Below, piece after piece: positions 32,580 to 43,191 of a DNA stretch of 64,000 bases (its first letter is position 1; every line of letters starts with the position of its first letter). Source of the DNA: Formosa sp. Hel3_A1_48 (GTDB taxonomy: Bacteria > Bacteroidota > Bacteroidia > Flavobacteriales > Flavobacteriaceae); NCBI RefSeq assembly GCF_001735715.1, contig NZ_CP017259.1, positions 1,795,501-1,859,500 on the forward strand, written 5' to 3'. The position numbers and the translations under genes are program-made. Under the pieces are notes generated by a model that was given only the letters and a program-made list of their open reading frames with translations, was not told the DNA's origin and made no database searches.

Positions 32580-35432
32580 ATGCCAAAACGAAAAGATTTA
32601 AAATCCATCCTCATTATCGGTTCAGGGCCGATCATTATCGGACAAGCATGCGAATTTGATTATTCAGGGTCGCAAGCCCTACGTTCACTTCGTGAAGATG
32701 GAATTGAAACTGTTCTTATCAACTCCAATCCCGCAACTATCATGACAGACCCATCAATGGCTGATCATGTGTATTTGTTGCCTCTAAATACAAAATCAAT
32801 CATCAAAATTTTGAAAGAACACCCGCAAATTGATGCTGTTTTACCAACTATGGGTGGTCAAACCGCGCTTAACTTGTGTATAGAAGCTGACGAAAAAGGC
32901 ATTTGGGAAGATTTTGGTGTAGAAATCATTGGTGTAGATATAGATGCTATTAACATCACCGAAGATAGAGAACAATTTCGCGAGTTAATGCTAAAAATTG
33001 GGGTTCCAATGGCACCTCAAGCTACGGCAAACTCTTACCTTAAGGGTAAAGAAATAGCACAAGAATTTGGTTTTCCATTAGTTATTCGCGCTTCTTTTAC
33101 ACTTGGAGGTGCTGGTGCTTCAATTGTTTATAAAGAAGAAGATTTTGATGAATTACTAAAACGCGGCTTAGAAATCTCGCCTATCCATGAGGTGATGATT
33201 GATAAAGCCATGATGGGTTGGAAGGAATACGAATTGGAGTTATTAAGAGATGATAATGACAATGTTGTTATCATTTGTTCGATTGAGAATATGGATCCAA
33301 TGGGGATTCATACAGGAGACTCCATCACGGTTGCTCCAGCAATGACTTTAAGCGACACCACTTATCAAAAAATGCGTGATATGGCCATTCACATGATGCG
33401 AAGTATTGGCGATTTTGCAGGGGGTTGTAACGTTCAGTTTGCTGTTAGTCCAGATGAAAAAGAAGATATCATTGCCATAGAAATTAATCCTCGTGTTTCA
33501 CGATCTTCAGCACTAGCCAGTAAAGCTACGGGATATCCTATTGCAAAAATAGCAGCAAAACTTGCTATTGGTTATTCTTTGGATGAGCTCCAAAATCAAA
33601 TTACAAAATCAACTTCGGCATTATTTGAGCCGACTCTAGATTATGTCATTGTAAAAATACCACGTTGGAATTTTGATAAATTTGAAGGAAGTGATCGTGA
33701 ATTAGGTCTTCAAATGAAAGCTGTAGGTGAAGTGATGGGAATTGGACGTTCTTTTCAAGAAGCATTACACAAGGCAACCCAATCCTTAGAAATTAAACGC
33801 AATGGATTAGGCGCAGATGGCAAGGGCTACTCCAACTACGATCAAATTATTAGCAAACTGAAACATGCGAGTTGGGATCGTGTATTTGTGATTTATGATG
33901 CCATACAAATTGGGATTCCTCTTTCTCGGATTCATGAAATTACTAAAATCGATATGTGGTTTTTGAAACAATATGAAGAATTGTATTTCCTCGAAAAGGA
34001 AGTTTCAACATATTCCATAGAAACAATCACAAAAGAACTCTTGCTAGAGGCCAAACAAAAAGGATACGGAGATCGACAAATTGCCCATATGTTGAGCTGT
34101 TTGGAAAGCCAAGTGTACAACAAGCGTAAAGATTTTAATATCAACAGAGTTTACAAGTTGGTAGACACTTGTGCTGCAGAATTTGAGGCAAAAACACCTT
34201 ATTATTATTCCACCTTTGAAAGCCAAATGACCACTAAAGAAGGACATACAGTTACAGAAAATGAAAGTGTTGTTACTGACAAAAAGAAAGTCATTGTTCT
34301 TGGTTCTGGACCTAATCGAATTGGACAGGGGATCGAATTTGATTACTGTTGTGTACATGGTGTTTTAGCGGCTGCCGAGTGCGGGTACGAAACCATCATG
34401 ATTAACTGTAACCCTGAAACTGTATCTACAGATTTTGATACGGCAGACAAACTATATTTTGAACCTGTTTTTTGGGAGCATATATATGATATTATACAGC
34501 ACGAAAAGCCTGAGGGCGTCATTGTTCAATTAGGCGGGCAAACGGCACTGAAGTTGGCTGAAAAACTGGATCGATATGGAATAAAGGTTATCGGAACGAG
34601 TTATCAGTCTTTAGATTTGGCCGAGGACCGGGGCTCTTTTTCTACACTTCTAAAAGAAAACAATATCCCTTATCCAGAATTTGATACAGCCGAAACCGCG
34701 GATCAAGCGCTTAAAGTTGCGGATAAATTAAATTTTCCAATACTAGTGAGACCTTCATATGTATTGGGTGGTCAAGGCATGAAAATCGTAATTAATAAGC
34801 AAGAGCTTGAAGATCATGTGATCGATTTACTCCGTAAAATCCCAAATAATAAACTGCTTTTAGATCATTATTTAGATGGCGCCATTGAAGCAGAAGCCGA
34901 TGCGATTTGCGATGGAGAAAATGTATACATCATCGGTATTATGGAGCACATAGAACCTTGTGGAATCCATTCTGGGGATAGTAATGCAACACTTCCACCA
35001 TTCAATTTAGGGGATTTAGTGATGCAACAAATTAAAGATCATACCAAGAAAATTGCACTCGCTTTAAATACTGTTGGTCTAATCAACATCCAATTTGCTG
35101 TTAAAAATGATAAAGTATATATCATTGAAGCCAATCCAAGAGCATCTAGAACAGTACCTTTTATTGCAAAAGCATACGGAGAACCTTATGTGAATTATGC
35201 CACTAAAGTGATGCTAGGCGATAAAAAAGTTACTGATTTTGACTTTAAACCACATTTAGATGGCTATGCAATTAAGCAACCAGTGTTTTCATTCAATAAG
35301 TTTCCAAATGTGAATAAACAATTGGGACCAGAAATGAAAAGTACTGGAGAAAGCATTTTATTTATAGATAGTCTAAAAGACGATGAGTTCTATGATTTGT
35401 ATGCTCGACGTAAAATGTATTTGAGTAAATAA
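32580..35432 (+). CDS. carB: Carbamoyl-phosphate synthase large subunit, short form
   Basis: Makes carbamoyl phosphate from bicarbonate, ammonia (from CarA) and two ATP for pyrimidine and arginine synthesis. Two ATP-grasp halves are visible, beginning LIIGSGPIIIGQACEFDYSG near residue 10 and VLGSGPNRIGQGIEFDYC near residue 572. At 950 aa it ends just after the second ATP-grasp half (SLKDDEFYDLYARRKMYLSK), so the ~130-residue C-terminal MGS domain that binds UMP and ornithine in E. coli (1073 aa) is absent or reduced to a stub; this short form is usual for Flavobacteria. carA is not adjacent. A TATTTTTG -7 match is at 32539-32546. Confidence 0.95.
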   Translation: MPKRKDLKSILIIGSGPIIIGQACEFDYSGSQALRSLREDGIETVLINSNPATIMTDPSMADHVYLLPLNTKSIIKILKEHPQIDAVLPTMGGQTALNLCIEADEKGIWEDFGVEIIGVDIDAINITEDREQFRELMLKIGVPMAPQATANSYLKGKEIAQEFGFPLVIRASFTLGGAGASIVYKEEDFDELLKRGLEISPIHEVMIDKAMMGWKEYELELLRDDNDNVVIICSIENMDPMGIHTGDSITVAPAMTLSDTTYQKMRDMAIHMMRSIGDFAGGCNVQFAVSPDEKEDIIAIEINPRVSRSSALASKATGYPIAKIAAKLAIGYSLDELQNQITKSTSALFEPTLDYVIVKIPRWNFDKFEGSDRELGLQMKAVGEVMGIGRSFQEALHKATQSLEIKRNGLGADGKGYSNYDQIISKLKHASWDRVFVIYDAIQIGIPLSRIHEITKIDMWFLKQYEELYFLEKEVSTYSIETITKELLLEAKQKGYGDRQIAHMLSCLESQVYNKRKDFNINRVYKLVDTCAAEFEAKTPYYYSTFESQMTTKEGHTVTENESVVTDKKKVIVLGSGPNRIGQGIEFDYCCVHGVLAAAECGYETIMINCNPETVSTDFDTADKLYFEPVFWEHIYDIIQHEKPEGVIVQLGGQTALKLAEKLDRYGIKVIGTSYQSLDLAEDRGSFSTLLKENNIPYPEFDTAETADQALKVADKLNFPILVRPSYVLGGQGMKIVINKQELEDHVIDLLRKIPNNKLLLDHYLDGAIEAEADAICDGENVYIIGIMEHIEPCGIHSGDSNATLPPFNLGDLVMQQIKDHTKKIALALNTVGLINIQFAVKNDKVYIIEANPRASRTVPFIAKAYGEPYVNYATKVMLGDKKVTDFDFKPHLDGYAIKQPVFSFNKFPNVNKQLGPEMKSTGESILFIDSLKDDEFYDLYARRKMYLSK

Positions 35433-35433
35433 C

Positions 35434-35468
35434 AAAAAAAAAGGCGGCGTTTTAGTCGCCTTTTTTTA
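35434..35468. terminator. Bidirectional terminator between carB and yceI-like gene
   Basis: A-run, GGCGGC, short loop, GTCGCC, T-run: the stem (35436-35448 with 35455-35467, one G-U pair) is flanked by A on the left and T on the right, so it can stop transcription from both convergent genes. The yceI-like stop codon (35452-35454) lies inside the loop/stem. Confidence 0.88.
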
Positions 35469-35991
35469 TGAGTTGAAAATCGAAAGAAATAGTTACTGTA
35501 TCACTGACTTTGTTGCGAACAATTTTTGGAATTTCTATTGCAAAATCATCAGCACTTACATCAAAAGTACCGTTGAATTTCATGGTATTGTCTTCTTTAA
35601 TTATATGAGTTTCAACAGAGATAGATGTACTCTTCCCATGCATTTCTAAGCGCCCCGAAAGGATATGTTTTTTATCTAAATTTTGAACATCAAAATTCAA
35701 TAATTGCCCTTTAAAAATTGCTTTGGGATAACGATTGCTTTCGATATAACTTTCATTAAAATGCTCTTCCATAAGTGCATTTTTAAAACGAAATCCTTTG
35801 ACTAAAGCCAAAGCCGCAAAAGTTCCATCAGTCGTGTTTAGTATCGCCGTAACATTTTCATTTGTAGCCTTAACTTCTTCAAAAGCAGGCATAGAGGCTT
35901 CAAAAGTGAGTGTTCCAGAACGAGTCCAATATTTTTCTTGACTGTTTGCAAGACTGGTACAACAAATAAAAAATAGAACTACATATTTCAT
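35452..35991 (-). CDS. YceI family exported lipid-binding protein
   Basis: 179-residue protein with a signal peptide (residues 1-17, ending LANSQ) and a lipocalin-like YceI barrel. Family features seen are SGTLTFEASMP at the start, FRFKNALMEEHFNESYIESNRYPKAIFKG in the middle and the closing VRNKVSDTVTISFDFQLIK. YceI proteins bind polyisoprenoids or amphiphilic lipids in the periplasm. It overlaps the upstream cytochrome c gene by 4 bases (ATGA), so the two are translationally coupled and presumably work together, suggesting a redox or quinone/isoprenoid link; that is inference. Confidence 0.9.
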   Translation of the reverse strand: MKYVVLFFICCTSLANSQEKYWTRSGTLTFEASMPAFEEVKATNENVTAILNTTDGTFAALALVKGFRFKNALMEEHFNESYIESNRYPKAIFKGQLLNFDVQNLDKKHILSGRLEMHGKSTSISVETHIIKEDNTMKFNGTFDVSADDFAIEIPKIVRNKVSDTVTISFDFQLIKKGD

Positions 35992-36353
35992 TCTAAATAG
36001 CCTTCATTCATCCATTGTTCTACCAAATCAATACTGACTTGTGGCAATCTCGAACCATACTTTGGCATAAATCCAGATTCACCGGGTTGACGATTCATAC
36101 GATCCAAGGCATCTGTATTTTCAAAAACATTTTTCACCTGACTGTAATTTGTCATCGGTACAGATGCACCACCTACAGCAGGGTTGGAGTGACAAGCAAC
36201 ACAATTCGCATCTATAATCGGTTTAATGTGTTCAGTATAGGTAATGTTTTCTGTTAGCGGTGTTTGTTCAATAAGATCACTTTCGCTGCTATTCTCACAA
36301 CTAGTACCTAAAATAAGCGAAATCAAAATAAATAAAAAGTTTATGTTTTTCAT
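35988..36353 (-). CDS. Single-haem c-type cytochrome lipoprotein
   Basis: 121 residues: signal peptide with lipobox GTSC (Cys 19), then a single haem-attachment motif CVACH at 51-55 and a likely distal Met ligand at about residue 96 in GFMPKYGSRLP. The C-terminal helix IDLVEQWMNEGYLE is typical of small class I-like cytochromes. It should carry electrons at the periplasmic face of a membrane. It is co-transcribed with the YceI gene and divergent from the OB-fold/ankyrin/DOMON/DUF5777 series. Confidence 0.9.
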   Translation of the reverse strand: MKNINFLFILISLILGTSCENSSESDLIEQTPLTENITYTEHIKPIIDANCVACHSNPAVGGASVPMTNYSQVKNVFENTDALDRMNRQPGESGFMPKYGSRLPQVSIDLVEQWMNEGYLE

Positions 36354-36449
36354 TGTTGTATTAGGTTACTTTTAATTAAATAATTTAACTAATTTATGTC
36401 ATTTCTGAACAATTCCTACTATCTTAACAAAGATTTAATTTTTATTTTT

Positions 36450-36833
36450 ATGAATAAGAAATATGGTATTATTGTTCTAATTGTACTGCTATTGGGGGTT
36501 TTAGCTTATTTTTATACACAAAAGCCTCATCGAGATATTGGTGCTGAAAAGGTAGAATTTCGTTTATCGTCGGATACATTATTGGATCAATTTATTTCTG
36601 ATGAAGACGCAGCATCCTCAAAATTTTTGGATAAAACAATAGTGATTTTTGGAAGCGTTACAGAAATTAATAAGAACTTTTTAACACTTGATGATAAAAT
36701 TTACTGTAAATTTGATGTAGTAATACCAAAAAAAAATACAAATTCTTCAATTGCAATAAAGGGGCGTTGCATTGGATTTGACTCATTATTACAACAAATT
36801 AAATTGGATCAATGTTTGATTTTAGAACCATAA
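36450..36833 (+). CDS. OB-fold (tRNA_anti-like) membrane-anchored protein
   Basis: 127 residues with one N-terminal transmembrane or signal segment (about residues 5-22) and a C-terminal OB-fold of the tRNA_anti-like type found in Bacteroidetes: KTIVIFGSVTEINKNFLTLDDKIYCKFD. The family has no known function; nucleic-acid binding should not be assumed for an extracytoplasmic copy. ATG 36450 is preferred over 36396 because it gives a charged n-region MNKK directly before the hydrophobic segment. It overlaps the ankyrin gene (TAATG arrangement at 36831-36835), so it heads an operon. Confidence 0.75.
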   Translation: MNKKYGIIVLIVLLLGVLAYFYTQKPHRDIGAEKVEFRLSSDTLLDQFISDEDAASSKFLDKTIVIFGSVTEINKNFLTLDDKIYCKFDVVIPKKNTNSSIAIKGRCIGFDSLLQQIKLDQCLILEP

Positions 36834-37333
36834 TGCTATTGTTGTTTTTGTCACAAAATCTTTGTGGTCAAAATGATATTTTTGAGTTGGCTCGTCGTGG
36901 ATCTGTTCAAGAAGTTAAAGCAGTTGTAAAAGAAACACCAAACGTGTTGAATGCTAAAGATCAGCGCGGAAGTACGCCACTTGTTTTGGCCTGTTACTAC
37001 AACAATATTGAAGTGGTAAGCTATTTGATTCCAAAGGTGGAAGATATCAATGGCAGTACCAAAGACGGTTCGCCATTGATGGCCTCGGCCGTTAAAGGTT
37101 ATAATGCTATTTCTAAACTATTAATAGCTGCTGGAGCAGATGTCAATTTACAAGACGCCAATAAAACTACAGCATTGCATTATGCCGTAATGTTTAAGAA
37201 CTATGATTTAGTACTGATGCTTCTTGAAGCAGGTGCCAACCCTAATCACAAAAATAACGTTGGGCAGTCGCCCAAGGATTACGTAATTGTCCAAAATGAT
37301 GAGCGTATGCATAAAATCTTTAAAATTAAATAA
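36812..37333 (+). CDS. Exported ankyrin-repeat protein
   Basis: 173 residues with a signal peptide (about 1-19) and four or five ankyrin repeats: ARRGSVQEVKAVVKETP, RGSTPLVLACYYNNIEVVSYLI, DGSPLMASAVKGYNAISKLLIAAGADVN and TTALHYAVMFKNYDLVLMLLEAGANPN. These mediate protein binding in the periplasm. Start ATG 36812 keeps an arginine before the hydrophobic core; ATG 36833, which overlaps the previous stop as TAATG, is a possible alternative. Periplasmic ankyrin proteins in other bacteria are tied to redox enzymes such as catalase; here it lies in an envelope redox-type cluster. Confidence 0.85.
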   Translation: MFDFRTIMLLLFLSQNLCGQNDIFELARRGSVQEVKAVVKETPNVLNAKDQRGSTPLVLACYYNNIEVVSYLIPKVEDINGSTKDGSPLMASAVKGYNAISKLLIAAGADVNLQDANKTTALHYAVMFKNYDLVLMLLEAGANPNHKNNVGQSPKDYVIVQNDERMHKIFKIK

Positions 37334-37340
37334 ATAGCTT

Positions 37341-38105
37341 ATGAAAAAAATTACACTATTATTACTTGTTTTTACATTTTTTATTTCTCAAGCGCAAAGT
37401 ACCACTACAGGTGAAATCACACTTACACCTGGCTTCACAGTACAGTTTGATGTTGATGGCCCAAATGATACGGTAACTATGACAATGGTTGGTCCTTCAA
37501 ATGTTTGGTTGGGGGTTGCAATAAATTCTACCCTCCCTGGTATGGGAAATTTAGGTGATGATGTAATTATCTTTTCAAATTCTGGTTTAAAAGATTACCA
37601 TATGGCAGGCGGTAATGGTGACCCCAATGAAGATACTAATCACTGGAATTTAATTGATGAGGATTACTCAATTCCTGGAGTTATTACTTTGGTTGCCACG
37701 AGGGTACTTGACACATCTGAGTCAACCGACTATGTTTTTTCAACTTCAACTGGGACTATTCCATTTCTCTGGGCAAAAGGAAATAATTCATTAAACTTAG
37801 GCTGGCATGGAGGCGCCAATCGAGGTGGAGCTCAGGGGACTTTTGTATTAAGTTCTCCATATTTTACAATGGAAAAATTTGAAATTTACCCCAACCCAAC
37901 AGTCGATGAGCTTAATTTTGAATTTCCTGACAATGTACAATCTGCCAACGTTCAGGTTTATAATATTTTAGGGAATCAAATCACGCAGACCCAATTGAAA
38001 AGAACAGTTCCAAAACTCGATACAAATGCATGGGCATCAGGGATGTATGTAGTGCAAATTATTACAGAAGATGCCGTTCAAACCAAGCGCATCATAAAAC
38101 AATAA
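37341..38105 (+). CDS. DOMON-domain protein with T9SS sorting signal
   Basis: 254 residues. Signal peptide 1-18 (ending SQAQ), then a DOMON-like beta-sandwich at about 20-175, with NVWLGVAINSTLPGMGNLGDDVIIF, YHMAGGNGDPNEDTNHW and NLGWHGGANRGG; DOMON domains of this kind bind haem b or sugar, and the Met and His residues in these loops could be axial ligands. A type A T9SS domain follows at about 183-254 (IYPNPTVDELNFEFPD to KRIIKQ), so the protein is exported across the outer membrane. Neighbours are ankyrin, DUF5777 and, divergently, cytochrome c and YceI genes. A surface electron-transfer role is inferred. Confidence 0.85.
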   Translation: MKKITLLLLVFTFFISQAQSTTTGEITLTPGFTVQFDVDGPNDTVTMTMVGPSNVWLGVAINSTLPGMGNLGDDVIIFSNSGLKDYHMAGGNGDPNEDTNHWNLIDEDYSIPGVITLVATRVLDTSESTDYVFSTSTGTIPFLWAKGNNSLNLGWHGGANRGGAQGTFVLSSPYFTMEKFEIYPNPTVDELNFEFPDNVQSANVQVYNILGNQITQTQLKRTVPKLDTNAWASGMYVVQIITEDAVQTKRIIKQ

Positions 38106-38111
38106 TTTTTT

Positions 38112-38960
38112 ATGAAATTTAAAATTCTCATTATTTTCTTATGCTTTACTTGTTTTGGTTTTGCACAAGACGATTTATTGAGTGAAATAGATGTTGAAAG
38201 TGAATCATCAACAACAGTAAGTTCTGTTTTTAAAGGGTTAAAAATTATAAACTTTGAGTCTACTAAACTTGTAGGTAAAGGCGGGTTTTATTTTGTGGTA
38301 TCCCACCGTTTTGGGAGTGTAAAAAATGGATTTGAAAATCTTTTTGGTCTTGATGAAGCCGTAACCCATCTCAATTTCATCTATGGGCTTACAGAGGGTA
38401 TTAATGTAAGCGCATCACGAAGCTCAAATCAAAAGATTTATGAATTGGCTTCAAAGTTTAGAATTATTAAACAATCTGAGCGCTTTCCGTTTTCAGTAGT
38501 AGGTTATACTTCAGTTTTAGCCAACACTGCATTGAGCACAGATAACTTACCAAAACTTGAATTCAAACACCGTTTGAGTTATGTTGCACAGCTACTGATA
38601 TCTAGAAAAGTAAACAACAAATTATCACTACAATTCACACCAACATTTTTTCATGACAATTATGTGGTCAACGATCTTCAAGACAATTCACAATACGGAT
38701 TAATATTTGGTGGGCGTTACAAGATTGGAAAACGCTGGTCTTTCAATTTGGAGTATGGTGCTCATCTTAACCGCGCCAAAAATTCGCTCTATAACAACCC
38801 TTTATCCTTAGGGTTTGATCTTGAAACTGGCGGTCATGTATTTCAATTACACTTTACAAATTCTCAATTCATGAATGCGAATGGCGTAATGGGAAACAGT
38901 ACTGGCGATTGGTCTGAAGGTGATTTCTACTTTGGCTTTAACATAAGCCGTTCGTTTTAG
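38112..38960 (+). CDS. DUF5777 beta-barrel outer-membrane protein
   Basis: 282 residues: signal peptide 1-18 (ending GFAQ) and a chain of alternating amphipathic strands to a C-terminal FYFGFNISRSF, ending in aromatic Phe as in outer-membrane barrels. It fits the DUF5777 family, found in Bacteroidetes with no known function; family features include VSHRFGSVKNGFENLFGLDEA and NINVSASRSSNQKIYELASKF-like strands. It follows the DOMON gene after 6 bases and so belongs to the same operon. It may form the outer-membrane part of this envelope system. Confidence 0.83.
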   Translation: MKFKILIIFLCFTCFGFAQDDLLSEIDVESESSTTVSSVFKGLKIINFESTKLVGKGGFYFVVSHRFGSVKNGFENLFGLDEAVTHLNFIYGLTEGINVSASRSSNQKIYELASKFRIIKQSERFPFSVVGYTSVLANTALSTDNLPKLEFKHRLSYVAQLLISRKVNNKLSLQFTPTFFHDNYVVNDLQDNSQYGLIFGGRYKIGKRWSFNLEYGAHLNRAKNSLYNNPLSLGFDLETGGHVFQLHFTNSQFMNANGVMGNSTGDWSEGDFYFGFNISRSF

Positions 38961-41035: not shown

Positions 41036-41089
41036 ATCTTGTAACAAATACCAAAACTACTCGTCTTGAAAATAACACGATCAGACAAT

Positions 41090-41605
41090 ATGAGTGAAAG
41101 CGAATACATAGCATTAGTTGATCCTTTCAAAACCAAATTGTTTCGGTTTGCTAAACGTTTTTTAGTTTCTATTGAAGAAGCAGAAGATGCTACTCAGGAC
41201 GTTCTTTTAAAATTATGGAAAATGCGGGATCGTTTGGGTCAATATAAAAGTCTAGAAGCTTTTGCAATGACCATTACCAAAAATCACTGCCTAGACCGAT
41301 TAAAGTCGAAGCAAGCGCAGAATTTAAAAATCACACACAATAATCACAAAGACCACAGATATGAGCTGCAAAAAGATATTGAGGTTAGCGATAGTATAAG
41401 ATTAATTGAAAAATTTATAACAACTCTGCCTGTTCAACAACAGTTGATTGTTCAGCTTAGGGATATTGAACAATATGAGTTTAAAGAAATTTCTGAAGTA
41501 TTAGAAATGAATGAAACAGCTATACGAGTGGCGCTTTCTAGAGCCAGAAAAACATTAAAAGAAAAATTGATAAAAGCACATAAGCATGGAATTACAAGCA
41601 ATTGA
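41090..41605 (+). CDS. ECF-type RNA polymerase sigma factor
   Basis: 171-residue sigma-70 family factor. Region 2 is visible as FRFAKRFLVSIEEAEDATQDVLLKLW followed by AFAMTITKNHCLDRLKSK (-10 recognition), and region 4 as LPVQQQLIVQLRDIEQYEFKEISEVLEMNETAIRVALSRARKTLKEKL (-35 recognition HTH), here quoted by its residues at about 118-164. ATG 41090 was chosen over the TTG at 41066. The next gene overlaps it by 20 bases and encodes a one-span membrane protein, the usual anti-sigma arrangement, followed by two DUF4252 genes. It probably responds to an envelope signal. Confidence 0.92.
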   Translation: MSESEYIALVDPFKTKLFRFAKRFLVSIEEAEDATQDVLLKLWKMRDRLGQYKSLEAFAMTITKNHCLDRLKSKQAQNLKITHNNHKDHRYELQKDIEVSDSIRLIEKFITTLPVQQQLIVQLRDIEQYEFKEISEVLEMNETAIRVALSRARKTLKEKLIKAHKHGITSN

Positions 41606-42074
41606 AGCGCTTTTAAAGAAATATGAGTTAGGAGAAACCTCTATGGCAGAGGAGACTCAATTAGCTTTATTTTTCAAATCGAGTTCAGTGCCCGAACATT
41701 TGGAGCATTACCGCTCGCTTTTTGATTATTTCTATAATTCAAGACAACAACAATACACAACAAAACTAAATTTTAAATCAACTTATTTTGAATTTAAGCG
41801 TTTATCTGTTGCCGCTTCAGTTATAATTTTATTAGGTTTAATTCTTAATTACAATTTAGAGTTGAAAAACAAACAATATTCAGAGGAAGAGCTTTTTGTT
41901 TATGATCAAACCAAAACAGCATTAGAAATGTTGTCAACGAATTTCAACAAAGGGACTTTACAGCTTAAGTCCTTAGAAATTTTATCTAAAACCCTTCAAA
42001 AAGGCGAGGAGAACATCTCCTTTTTAAATACATTTAATACAACAACCCGTAAAATATTTAAAATAAATAAGTAA
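41586..42074 (+). CDS. Membrane protein, likely anti-sigma factor
   Basis: 162 residues with a cytoplasmic N-terminal helical part (MELQAIEALLKKYELGETSMAEE, a hallmark opening of bacteroidetal anti-sigma-like proteins), one transmembrane helix at about 76-93 (SVAASVIILLGLILN) and a periplasmic C-terminal domain. It overlaps the sigma factor gene by 20 bases. No zinc-binding HxxxCxxC motif of the ZAS type is present. By position and topology it should hold the sigma factor at the membrane until a signal arrives; direct homology to a named anti-sigma family is not certain. Confidence 0.75.
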   Translation: MELQAIEALLKKYELGETSMAEETQLALFFKSSSVPEHLEHYRSLFDYFYNSRQQQYTTKLNFKSTYFEFKRLSVAASVIILLGLILNYNLELKNKQYSEEELFVYDQTKTALEMLSTNFNKGTLQLKSLEILSKTLQKGEENISFLNTFNTTTRKIFKINK

Positions 42075-42084
42075 ATTTAATATT

Positions 42085-42648
42085 ATGAAGAATATAATAA
42101 TCATTTTAATTTTTGCCATTGCTCCAATTGGATTTGCACAAAGTCTTTTTGAAAAATACGAAGACATGGATAATGTTTCTTCAGTAGTAGTCAATCAAAA
42201 AATGTTTGGTATGCTTGCTGAAATGCAAATTAAAACCAATGATCCTGAAGCTGACACTTTTTTAGAACAAGTTAAAACACTAAAAAATTTAACGGTCTAC
42301 ACTACTGATGATTTAACAGTTTCCAAAGCTATTATTTTAGATGTAGACCGCTATATAAAATCTTCTTCACTTGAAGAGCTCATGCGTATAAAGGATGGTG
42401 ATAAAAACATTAAGTTCTATGTTCAATCAGGCAGAGATGACAATCATGTCTCAGAACTTCTTATGCTTGTCAATGGTTTGACAAAAGCTTCGGATGCTAG
42501 AGATATTAAACTGGGTGGAGAGAAACGAATTGTTGAAACTATATTGCTTTCACTTACTGGAGACATTGATTTGCGTAATGTATCTAAATTGACAACTCAA
42601 CTTAACGTGCCAGGTGGAGAGCAACTTAAAAAGGCTTCTAAAAAATAA
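42085..42648 (+). CDS. DUF4252 exported protein
   Basis: 187 residues: signal peptide 1-18 (ending GFAQ) and a DUF4252 domain, identified from SLFEKYEDMDNVSSVVVNQKMFGML, the LKNLTVYTTDD strand and LMRIKDGDKNIKFYVQ. DUF4252 proteins are common in Flavobacteria next to ECF sigma/anti-sigma pairs and have no known function. It starts 10 bases after the anti-sigma-like gene, so it is part of this regulatory operon. It may be an effector or sensor in the envelope. Confidence 0.85.
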   Translation: MKNIIIILIFAIAPIGFAQSLFEKYEDMDNVSSVVVNQKMFGMLAEMQIKTNDPEADTFLEQVKTLKNLTVYTTDDLTVSKAIILDVDRYIKSSSLEELMRIKDGDKNIKFYVQSGRDDNHVSELLMLVNGLTKASDARDIKLGGEKRIVETILLSLTGDIDLRNVSKLTTQLNVPGGEQLKKASKK

Positions 42649-42651
42649 ACT

Positions 42652-43191
42652 ATGCGTTCATTTGTTCTTGGTCTGGGTGTTTTTATTTCAGTCTTTTTTT
42701 TCGGTTGTAATTCTCAGCCTAGTTTACAAACCTATTTTGTAGATCATCAAGAATCTCCCAATTTTATATCAATGGATGTTCCAATTTCCTTTTTGGGCGC
42801 AAAAGATGTTAAAATGACTGATAGACAACGTCAAGCTGTTAATTCTATTGATAAATTGAATATGCTTGGCTACAGTTTAAGGTCTGGCGATAACGATTCA
42901 TATAACAAAGAAGTTAATGAAATTAAAGACATACTAAATGATAAACGCTACAATGAACTGTTGCGTCTTGGTAATTTGAATGATGGTCGTGTAAAAATTT
43001 GTTACGTAGGAGATGATGAAGTTATTGATGAACTAATTGTTTTTGGGAGATCCAACAAGTATGGATTTGCAGTAATTCGTGTCCTAGGTGACGATATGGA
43101 AGTGTCTAAAATAATGGAATTAGGACCAATAATAAGCCAATTAAACACCGAAGATATTAATGTCGAAGGGTTTATGGACTTTATGCTCTAA
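42652..43191 (+). CDS. DUF4252 lipoprotein
   Basis: 179 residues with a lipobox FFGC (Cys at about 19) and a domain resembling the preceding DUF4252 protein: VDHQESPNFISMDVPISFL, LRLGNLNDGRVKICYVGDDEVIDELIVFG. It starts 3 bases after that gene. The pair looks like an old tandem duplication, one soluble and one lipid-anchored, controlled by the ECF sigma factor. Function unknown. Confidence 0.82.
   Translation: MRSFVLGLGVFISVFFFGCNSQPSLQTYFVDHQESPNFISMDVPISFLGAKDVKMTDRQRQAVNSIDKLNMLGYSLRSGDNDSYNKEVNEIKDILNDKRYNELLRLGNLNDGRVKICYVGDDEVIDELIVFGRSNKYGFAVIRVLGDDMEVSKIMELGPIISQLNTEDINVEGFMDFML

Follow-up and report, generated by a model that had tools for sequence, protein, structure and literature searches.

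Comparison of gene neighborhoods links a DUF5777 outer-membrane barrel to small redox carriers and YceI lipocalins across the Bacteroidota

The question raised by this locus is what six adjacent genes for apparently exported or membrane-anchored proteins do together. The genes lie in a 64-kb stretch (64,000 nucleotides; hereafter, the window) of the single contig that makes up the 2.0-Mb genome of Formosa sp. Hel3_A1_48, and they encode a YceI-family lipocalin, a monoheme cytochrome c, an OB-fold protein, an ankyrin-repeat protein, a DOMON protein with a type IX secretion system (T9SS) sorting domain, and a DUF5777 outer-membrane beta-barrel. The original prediction, made from the DNA sequence, proposed that they form one group that reaches from the periplasm to the cell surface and serves electron transfer or lipid handling. 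All six open reading frames (ORFs) proved to be open and located where they had been placed, and a Pfam scan upheld the family names YceI, OB-fold, ankyrin, DOMON with T9SS signal, and DUF5777; the export signals of the six proteins were judged by eye rather than with a predictor. By comparing the neighborhoods of the barrel gene, we show that family labels link DUF5777 across the Bacteroidota to a small redox carrier and usually also to its own group of YceI proteins.

In a sample of 247 Bacteroidota genomes, DUF5777 was present in 98, and it was found in none of 14 well-known control genomes. The sample yielded 126 matches, and neighborhoods were obtained for 117 of these plus the window, the omitted matches being the seven of lowest score and another that lay at the edge of a contig; two of the 118 stretches (L036 and L050) yielded no anchor ORF and were dropped, which left 116 loci for analysis, the window included. 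Using profiles grown out of the window proteins, we labeled a YceI gene within four genes of the barrel in 96 of these loci and a cytochrome gene in 94. Counted by gene, 104 YceI and 104 cytochromes occupied the 908 slots at these near offsets, relative to 4 YceI and 1 cytochrome in the 791 control slots at offsets 5 to 8, and one of the far YceI genes is the window's own, at offset 5. This contrast gives a Fisher P below 1e-24 if loci are independent; related genomes are not independent, and the hypergeometric values make the same assumption. The offset control speaks against a chance neighborhood for the core genes, and the failure to co-occur that the original prediction had named as its own refutation was not observed for them. 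That the genes are chance neighbors, or are linked through the shared ancestry of a few genomes, has next to no probability: nothing in the core favors this explanation, and, besides the far-offset control, the linkage is seen both in the window's own family and in relatives as distant as the phylum level, in differing orders and on differing strands. For ankyrin and DOMON, the sample is small.

A second, named flavobacterial set comprised the best 80 of at least 590 loci. Within six genes of the barrel, YceI was present in all 80 of these and the cytochrome in 76, the latter count applying within four genes as well. The OB-fold gene occurred in 26 of the 116 phylum-sample loci versus 71 of the 80 named loci, and the ankyrin and DOMON genes occurred as a pair in 6 and 13 loci, respectively. 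The core of the module is therefore the cytochrome, YceI, and DUF5777, with ankyrin and DOMON as an optional pair, and the window's six genes are the local form of a module spread across the Bacteroidota. Thus, the genes do belong together and encode envelope proteins, with the core co-occurring far beyond chance, albeit not as one fixed set of six, and support is narrower for the ankyrin and OB linkage than for the core. Order and strand vary, with the core arranged as C-Y-D or D-C-Y, larger sets as o-D-C-Y-a-M or o-M-D-C-Y, and divergent forms in addition. The core linkage persists through this reordering and for that reason speaks more for function than an unchanging order would. The exact layout of the window was found again in four named loci (L183, L194, L198, and L206), and a fifth (L210) has the same layout but no called cytochrome.

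The window cytochrome has a lipobox (LGTSC, with Cys19), the heme motif C51-VA-C54-H55, and Met96 as a candidate axial ligand. The CVACH motif reported earlier is thus present, and the family profile matches cytochrome c6 structures (E, 4e-7), although the best Pfam score of the window protein (20.7 bits) falls under every cut-off. Among 105 family members, C54, H55, and W114 are kept in 105, C19 is kept in 104, C51 in 103, and M96 in 102; the heme motif reads CxxCH or CxxxxCH, and a Met is followed by a Pro (102/105 and 104/105, respectively). These features point to a class I, c6-like cytochrome with putative His/Met ligation. A single heme motif was found in the window protein and, by eye, in each of 31 aligned rows.

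The cytochrome is not the only carrier found beside the barrel. Of the 116 loci, 93 have a cytochrome without a Rieske protein, 9 have a Rieske protein without a cytochrome, and 1 has both, relative to 8.1 joint loci expected (P = 6e-7 if loci are independent). Well-supported branches of a DUF5777 tree (115 rows, one row shorter than 240 amino acids left out; quick method with Shimodaira-Hasegawa-like approximate likelihood-ratio test [SH-aLRT] support only) require the Rieske label to have been gained or lost at least five times in all. A cupredoxin stands in four further loci, one of which has a cytochrome as well. Pfam was run on one Rieske protein (L089) and one carrier-slot cupredoxin (L072), with the rest assigned by similarity clusters or by profile, the cupredoxin profile having been built from 11 proteins of the named loci. 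On these assignments, unrelated electron carriers fill one slot beside the barrel. Given that cytochrome c, Rieske proteins, and cupredoxins share one-electron transfer, this exchange is the strongest functional evidence that we have, and the repeated replacement of cytochrome c by Rieske or blue-copper proteins gives the electron-transfer reading of the original prediction strong, if indirect, support. A cytochrome c gene and a Rieske gene with neighboring locus tags in Bizionia argentinensis (BZARG_RS03000/RS03005), both strongly decreased in a mutant of an iron regulator according to the excerpted text of PMC9478572, might be part of a module of this type.

The cytochrome may also be a lipoprotein of the cell surface. 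In 62 cytochromes of the named set with a recognizable lipobox, the eight positions after the lipobox Cys hold a mean of 2.7 acidic residues, often ending in EDDL or ESDL, relative to a mean of 1.4 in 144 further ORFs from these loci that look like lipoproteins. In Bacteroidetes, the Cys of surface lipoproteins is followed by a polar residue and then by acidic ones, with the consensus SDDFE in F. johnsoniae (PMC5080379, as excerpted), although the acidic residues of the cytochromes lie somewhat further from the Cys than in this consensus.

The window YceI scores 48.5 bits against PF04264 (curated cut-off, 23.7); on its own it matches no PDB entry, and a search with its family profile recovers E. 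coli YceI (1y0g; E, 2.5e-11). In a tree of 90 rows, for which every second cluster YceI was taken, the YceI of the clusters, whether from the window's family or from relatives at the phylum level, fell on one side of a 99/96 branch, and 35 non-cluster YceI fell on the other, together with L101_Y6, an extra copy that is the second one beside its cluster. Of two long branches, L092_Y2 lies on the cluster side and L002, from the source genome, on the other; of the three copies in the source genome, only L002 and the window's YceI entered, the latter twice (as WIN and L003), and the window rows were tagged "other" solely because this YceI sits five genes from the barrel. The window YceI did not group with the other, higher-scoring YceI in this tree, in which divergent non-cluster YceI are under-sampled, 30 of the 35 non-cluster rows being the best scorers of a Pfam search. 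Since the cluster YceI form a separate group, they seem to have travelled together with the DUF5777 barrel. YceI lipocalins have been reported, in the excerpted text of PMC9113575, to hold ubiquinone-8 or octaprenyl lipids, and given such ligands (isoprenoid lipids and quinones), the lipid-handling half of the original prediction may apply as well.

Cytochrome and barrel occur without YceI in 17 loci (18 under the four-gene rule, by which the window is included, its YceI lying five genes off), and eight of these represent a distinct subtype. One well-supported DUF5777 clade, consisting of these eight loci and L045, shares parts of a different gene set: five of the eight carry EB_dh (ethylbenzene-dehydrogenase type, a heme-b family), six carry NrfD together with a 4Fe-4S protein, three of these loci combine the two, and a second cytochrome is usually present, with Pfam having been run on one example of each family. 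The YceI label is absent within five genes of the barrels of this clade, with one L088 protein looking YceI-like by eye. NrfD/4Fe-4S proteins commonly take electrons from menaquinol. Since they stand in the subtype that lacks YceI, the parallel suggests that the YceI of the other subtype may also bring quinol electrons. The source genome itself contains a single NrfD match, and two cytochrome matches lie no more than 5 kb from it; this locus can be read as that of an alternative complex III.

Taken together, these comparisons give nearly an even chance that the cluster is an electron-transfer module that is fed by quinol and works at the outer membrane. In such a module, YceI would carry reduced isoprenoid quinone (menaquinol) across the periplasm, a membrane NrfD/4Fe-4S module might do this work in the subtype without YceI, and the lipoprotein carrier would take up the electrons and dock at the DUF5777 barrel. 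Where it is present, as in the window, a T9SS-exported DOMON protein (heme b) or cupredoxin would take the electrons on as far as the cell surface. The ankyrin protein would assist the DOMON protein, for example in heme loading, since the two come together, and the membrane-anchored OB protein would act as a periplasmic assembly or docking factor.

The barrel at which these steps would converge scores 283.7 bits against PF19089 in the window and was modeled as a 12-strand outer-membrane barrel (predicted local distance difference test [pLDDT], 88.9). The model resembles FapF (Z, 18.5; 211 residues; 3.6 Å) and KdgM (Z, 18.2; 166 residues; 2.1 Å), and it is also near the COG4313 channel (Z, 17.4), LpxR (Z, 15.4), and OMPLA (Z, ~12), while a sequence search of the PDB returned no solved structure at E up to 1. 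The family has the conserved motifs HRFG and ETGGHxFQ, and His65 and His242 are each kept in 115 of 116 proteins. Arg103 and Arg280 appear to face the lipid by hydropathy parity, a sequence argument. A bis-His heme in the barrel lumen was considered and rejected, because the same parity puts both histidines on the lipid side.

These properties of the barrel bear on a different reading, in which YceI ferries a lipid or isoprenoid to DUF5777 and the heme proteins modify that lipid by redox chemistry rather than serving respiration. The YceI fold, the likeness of the barrel model to hydrophobic-compound and lipid-active barrels (the COG4313 channel, LpxR, and OMPLA), and the two nearly invariant, apparently lipid-facing histidines are all consistent with lipid transport. 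However, YceI is missing from 17 loci that retain the cytochrome, and the repeated swaps of unrelated carriers indicate that what these loci share is the handling of electrons; we consider lipid transport quite unlikely.

Of the proposed surface proteins, the window DOMON protein matches PF03351 with 35.5 bits (cut-off, 32.7), and its tail matches Por_Secre_tail (PF18962) with 53.2 bits and the T9SS type A sorting domain TIGR04183 with 59.3 bits versus a cut-off of 23, with a Z of 12.8 to 8glk_D. Its model (pLDDT, 79; 13 sequences) resembles the DOMON domain of dopamine beta-hydroxylase (4zel; Z, 14.7) and the cytochrome domain of cellobiose dehydrogenase (4qi3; Z, 11.6). Two residues, Met68 and His156, do not vary in any of the 13 aligned rows and are candidate heme-b ligands. 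The structure prediction that the original prediction had recommended thus gave a DOMON-like model for this protein and a 12-strand barrel for DUF5777. Of the 80 named loci, the same 13 contain the ankyrin and the DOMON gene, and in the phylum sample the two lie side by side at each of the six loci that have DOMON. By the reported example of an ankyrin protein of Campylobacter, the ankyrin protein here may help in heme trafficking.

In the 247 genomes, 26 of 43 PF12869 matches, counted by hand, lie within 5 kb of DUF5777. The OB family has two partly conserved cysteines (VFC.F and KLDQC), which could form a periplasmic disulfide. A heme chaperone of the CcmE type was also considered for the OB protein. 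CcmE has a conserved heme-binding His near its C terminus; no conserved His was found in the OB domain or C terminus in 25 aligned rows, and this candidate was rejected.

Presumed surface partners of the barrel are not confined to DOMON proteins. Within three genes of the barrel, 36 of the 80 named loci have a T9SS-tailed protein and 22 have a redox-type one, with one further locus having a cupredoxin without a called T9SS tail; by slot, T9SS-tailed proteins occupy 46 of 468 near slots and 4 of 547 far slots. The redox types are cupredoxins (12 loci; PF00127 confirmed in L120 and L129), DOMON proteins (8 loci), and CxxCH-bearing proteins (2 loci), and 24 T9SS-tailed proteins are of other kinds. 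T9SS-tailed partners are thus enriched near the barrel in the flavobacterial set, but the periplasm-to-surface layout proposed at the outset is not general: the phylum sample shows no T9SS enrichment near the barrel (13 of 685 near slots versus 15 of 791 far slots), and 7 of its 116 loci have a T9SS-tailed redox-type partner. Given this lack of enrichment, the surface part is best described as an add-on.

That lack of enrichment weighs against the electron-transfer reading, as do several further observations. DOMON is rare in the phylum: it was detected in 7 of the 247 genomes, a lower bound since the six-frame search missed the window copy, and it lies at DUF5777 loci in two of these and elsewhere in five. 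No recognized carrier stands within four genes of the barrel in 10 of the 116 loci, three of which (L052, L122, and L147) are on cut contigs. With lipid-facing parity, His65 and His242 are not evident cofactor ligands in the lumen; a KdgM-like 12-strand barrel would leave too little room inside for a cytochrome, unlike MtrB; and one heme could not by itself span the outer membrane. In its fullest form, the electron-transfer reading would describe a new type of outer-membrane conduit, widespread in the Bacteroidota, that uses single-center carriers instead of multiheme wires. YceI would be the menaquinol ferry, and the lipoprotein carrier (cytochrome c, Rieske, or blue-copper, with an acidic N terminus resembling an export signal) might be flipped to the surface; DUF5777 would provide docking through its lipid-facing His and Arg residues, and T9SS heme-b or copper proteins would pass electrons outside. 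We regard a conduit of this description as unlikely.

The same core could instead protect the envelope. In this alternative, the main rival, which resembles BcnA/LcoA, quinol held by YceI would quench lipid peroxyl radicals, the cytochrome or Rieske protein would re-reduce it in place of cytochrome b561, and DUF5777 would anchor the assembly in the outer membrane as a shield against lipid peroxidation. BcnA/LcoA likewise pair a YceI with a redox protein, bcnA or lcoA mutants show more membrane lipid peroxidation (PMC9113575, as excerpted), and the protective reading accounts for the lack of a surface partner in most loci outside the flavobacterial set. On the other hand, no cytochrome b561 was found among the eight window proteins scanned, the cluster YceI are set apart from other YceI, the loci with cytochrome and barrel do without YceI in 17 cases, and T9SS blue-copper and DOMON partners are left unexplained. 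We therefore consider a peroxidation shield possible but doubtful. The electron-transfer reading and the shield part ways over what the electrons are finally used for, and each could be true in part.

Genes reminiscent of metal handling were seen near some barrels. Short CxxC proteins that by eye look like heavy-metal-associated domains of the copper-chaperone kind directly follow DUF5777 in seven named loci (L176, L177, L179, L181, L182, L185, and L201), several of which then have a second OB-YceI-DUF5777 set, and genes resembling CusB-type heavy-metal efflux adaptors lie near the module in three mapped loci (L083, L044, and L119). The module could be one that handles metals at the cell surface, in the oxidation and homeostasis of copper or iron, and cupredoxin and DOMON would then be its metal-redox proteins. 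Both groups of neighbors and the T9SS-tailed cupredoxins in 12 of the 80 named loci speak for metal handling, but metal genes are a minority neighbor, and the core of cytochrome, YceI, and barrel has no metal-binding signature except heme, which makes it very unlikely.

Regulatory genes were also noted in the surroundings. A gene of Crp/Fnr-type appearance lies upstream of the cluster in L038, L040, L136, and L106 and, by eye, in L229, which hints at control by oxygen or redox state. A gene resembling an anti-sigma/outer-membrane fusion lies near the barrel in 14 loci, usually behind an extracytoplasmic function (ECF) sigma factor gene; it precedes the barrel in 12 (L037, L059, L069, L078, L080, L085, L087, L094, L098, L124, L135, and L150) and follows it in L072 and L099. 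In the window, about 2 kb downstream (41066-43191), a likely ECF sigma gene is followed by a likely anti-sigma gene and two genes for small exported proteins, as judged by eye.

The features of the locus are listed in Table 1. Its nearest named relatives are from the Flavobacteriaceae and include a Formosa assembly with a DUF5777 identity of 72%; F. aquaticum and F. cheniae are among the flavobacteria that have the cluster. The cytochrome and YceI ORFs overlap by 4 bases, as originally described, and the OB and ankyrin ORFs overlap by 22. The two arms do diverge from an intergenic gap, which measures 96 rather than 97 bases if the OB gene starts at 36450; a longer in-frame start at an ATG at 36396 is possible. 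Promoters for both arms are presumed to lie in this gap. No exact TAnnTTTG box is present around it, and one-mismatch boxes (8 versus 4.2 expected in 170 bases) are uninformative. A carB gene (950 amino acids; 32580-35432) stands beside the module, and carB likewise lies beside or near it in L120, L121, and L127 and in 26 matches in the named set. Since carB adjoins the module in many flavobacteria, the locus appears to occupy an old, conserved chromosomal place.

Table 1. Coordinates of the cluster's features, as positions in the window
Feature	Position	Strand	Details
YceI-family periplasmic lipocalin	35452..35991	-	179 amino acids; PF04264; signal peptide by eye
Monoheme cytochrome c lipoprotein	35988..36353	-	121 amino acids; lipobox and CVACH
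Divergent intergenic region, presumed promoters for both arms	36354..36449	.	96 bases; from sequence only
Membrane-anchored OB-fold protein (tRNA_anti-like, PF12869)	36450..36833	+	Pfam, 33.3 bits
Exported ankyrin-repeat protein	36812..37333	+	Ank_2, 78.7 bits
DOMON with T9SS C-terminal sorting domain	37341..38105	+	254 amino acids; PF03351, PF18962 (Por_Secre_tail)
DUF5777 outer-membrane beta-barrel	38112..38960	+	282 amino acids; PF19089; 12 predicted strands

About four in ten of the 247 sampled genomes have this barrel family. If the electron-transfer reading holds, common environmental bacteria that are not normally classed as electrogenic would possess a pathway in the envelope dedicated to electrons, in which YceI is a periplasmic quinol carrier; if the module counters lipid peroxidation, it would represent, in the Bacteroidota, the kind of protection that has been described with cytochrome b561. 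In both cases, DUF5777 would gain a function and the separate YceI group an explanation. In the literature searched, we found no paper naming DUF5777 and, in the titles and abstracts listed, no description of this gene cluster. Transcriptome leads from the excerpted texts on Flavobacterium psychrophilum (PMC9723704), iron limitation in Riemerella (PMC5429918), and Bizionia MliR (PMC9478572) could not be tied to this locus. The protein families themselves are known, but their combination was not found in those titles and abstracts.

Several known systems resemble parts of the module. The 12-strand DUF5777 model resembles KdgM/NanC and FapF, from which DUF5777 differs in having no sequence match to a solved structure at E up to 1, in its own HRFG and ETGGHxFQ motifs, and in its linkage to redox genes. 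The exported DOMON domain has a modeled fold like those of the cellobiose dehydrogenase cytochrome domain and the dopamine beta-hydroxylase DOMON, at a sequence identity of 13 to 14%, and the protein here bears a T9SS tail. Its invariant Met and His are candidates for a Met/His ligand pair such as the cellobiose dehydrogenase cytochrome domain uses.

For YceI, the one described system that we found in the literature searched to tie it to a redox protein is BcnA/LcoA. In the LcoA-BcnA-PsrA system, which serves lipid peroxyl radical detoxification in Burkholderia cenocepacia (PMC9113575, as excerpted), a YceI lipocalin is likewise genetically tied to an envelope redox protein, and quinone is its suspected ligand. 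The partner there is a membrane cytochrome b561, encoded beside the lipocalin gene, for which the scan of the eight window proteins gave no counterpart; here, YceI is accompanied by either a cytochrome c lipoprotein or a Rieske protein, by a barrel of the outer membrane and, in some loci, by T9SS-exported redox proteins, and it belongs to a separate group.

For the barrel, the closest parallel is with the Pcc/Mtr conduits, for which a survey (PMC4245776), as excerpted, lists Ignavibacterium and does not mention Bacteroidetes by that word. As in these conduits, genes for c-type cytochromes go together with one for an outer-membrane barrel, and part of the loci add a redox protein that is presumed to be at the surface. 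Neither the window cytochrome nor the 31 aligned rows include a multiheme periplasmic cytochrome, however, and where Pcc/Mtr conduits combine multiheme cytochromes with a large porin, the module described here combines one heme motif per cytochrome with a 12-strand barrel.

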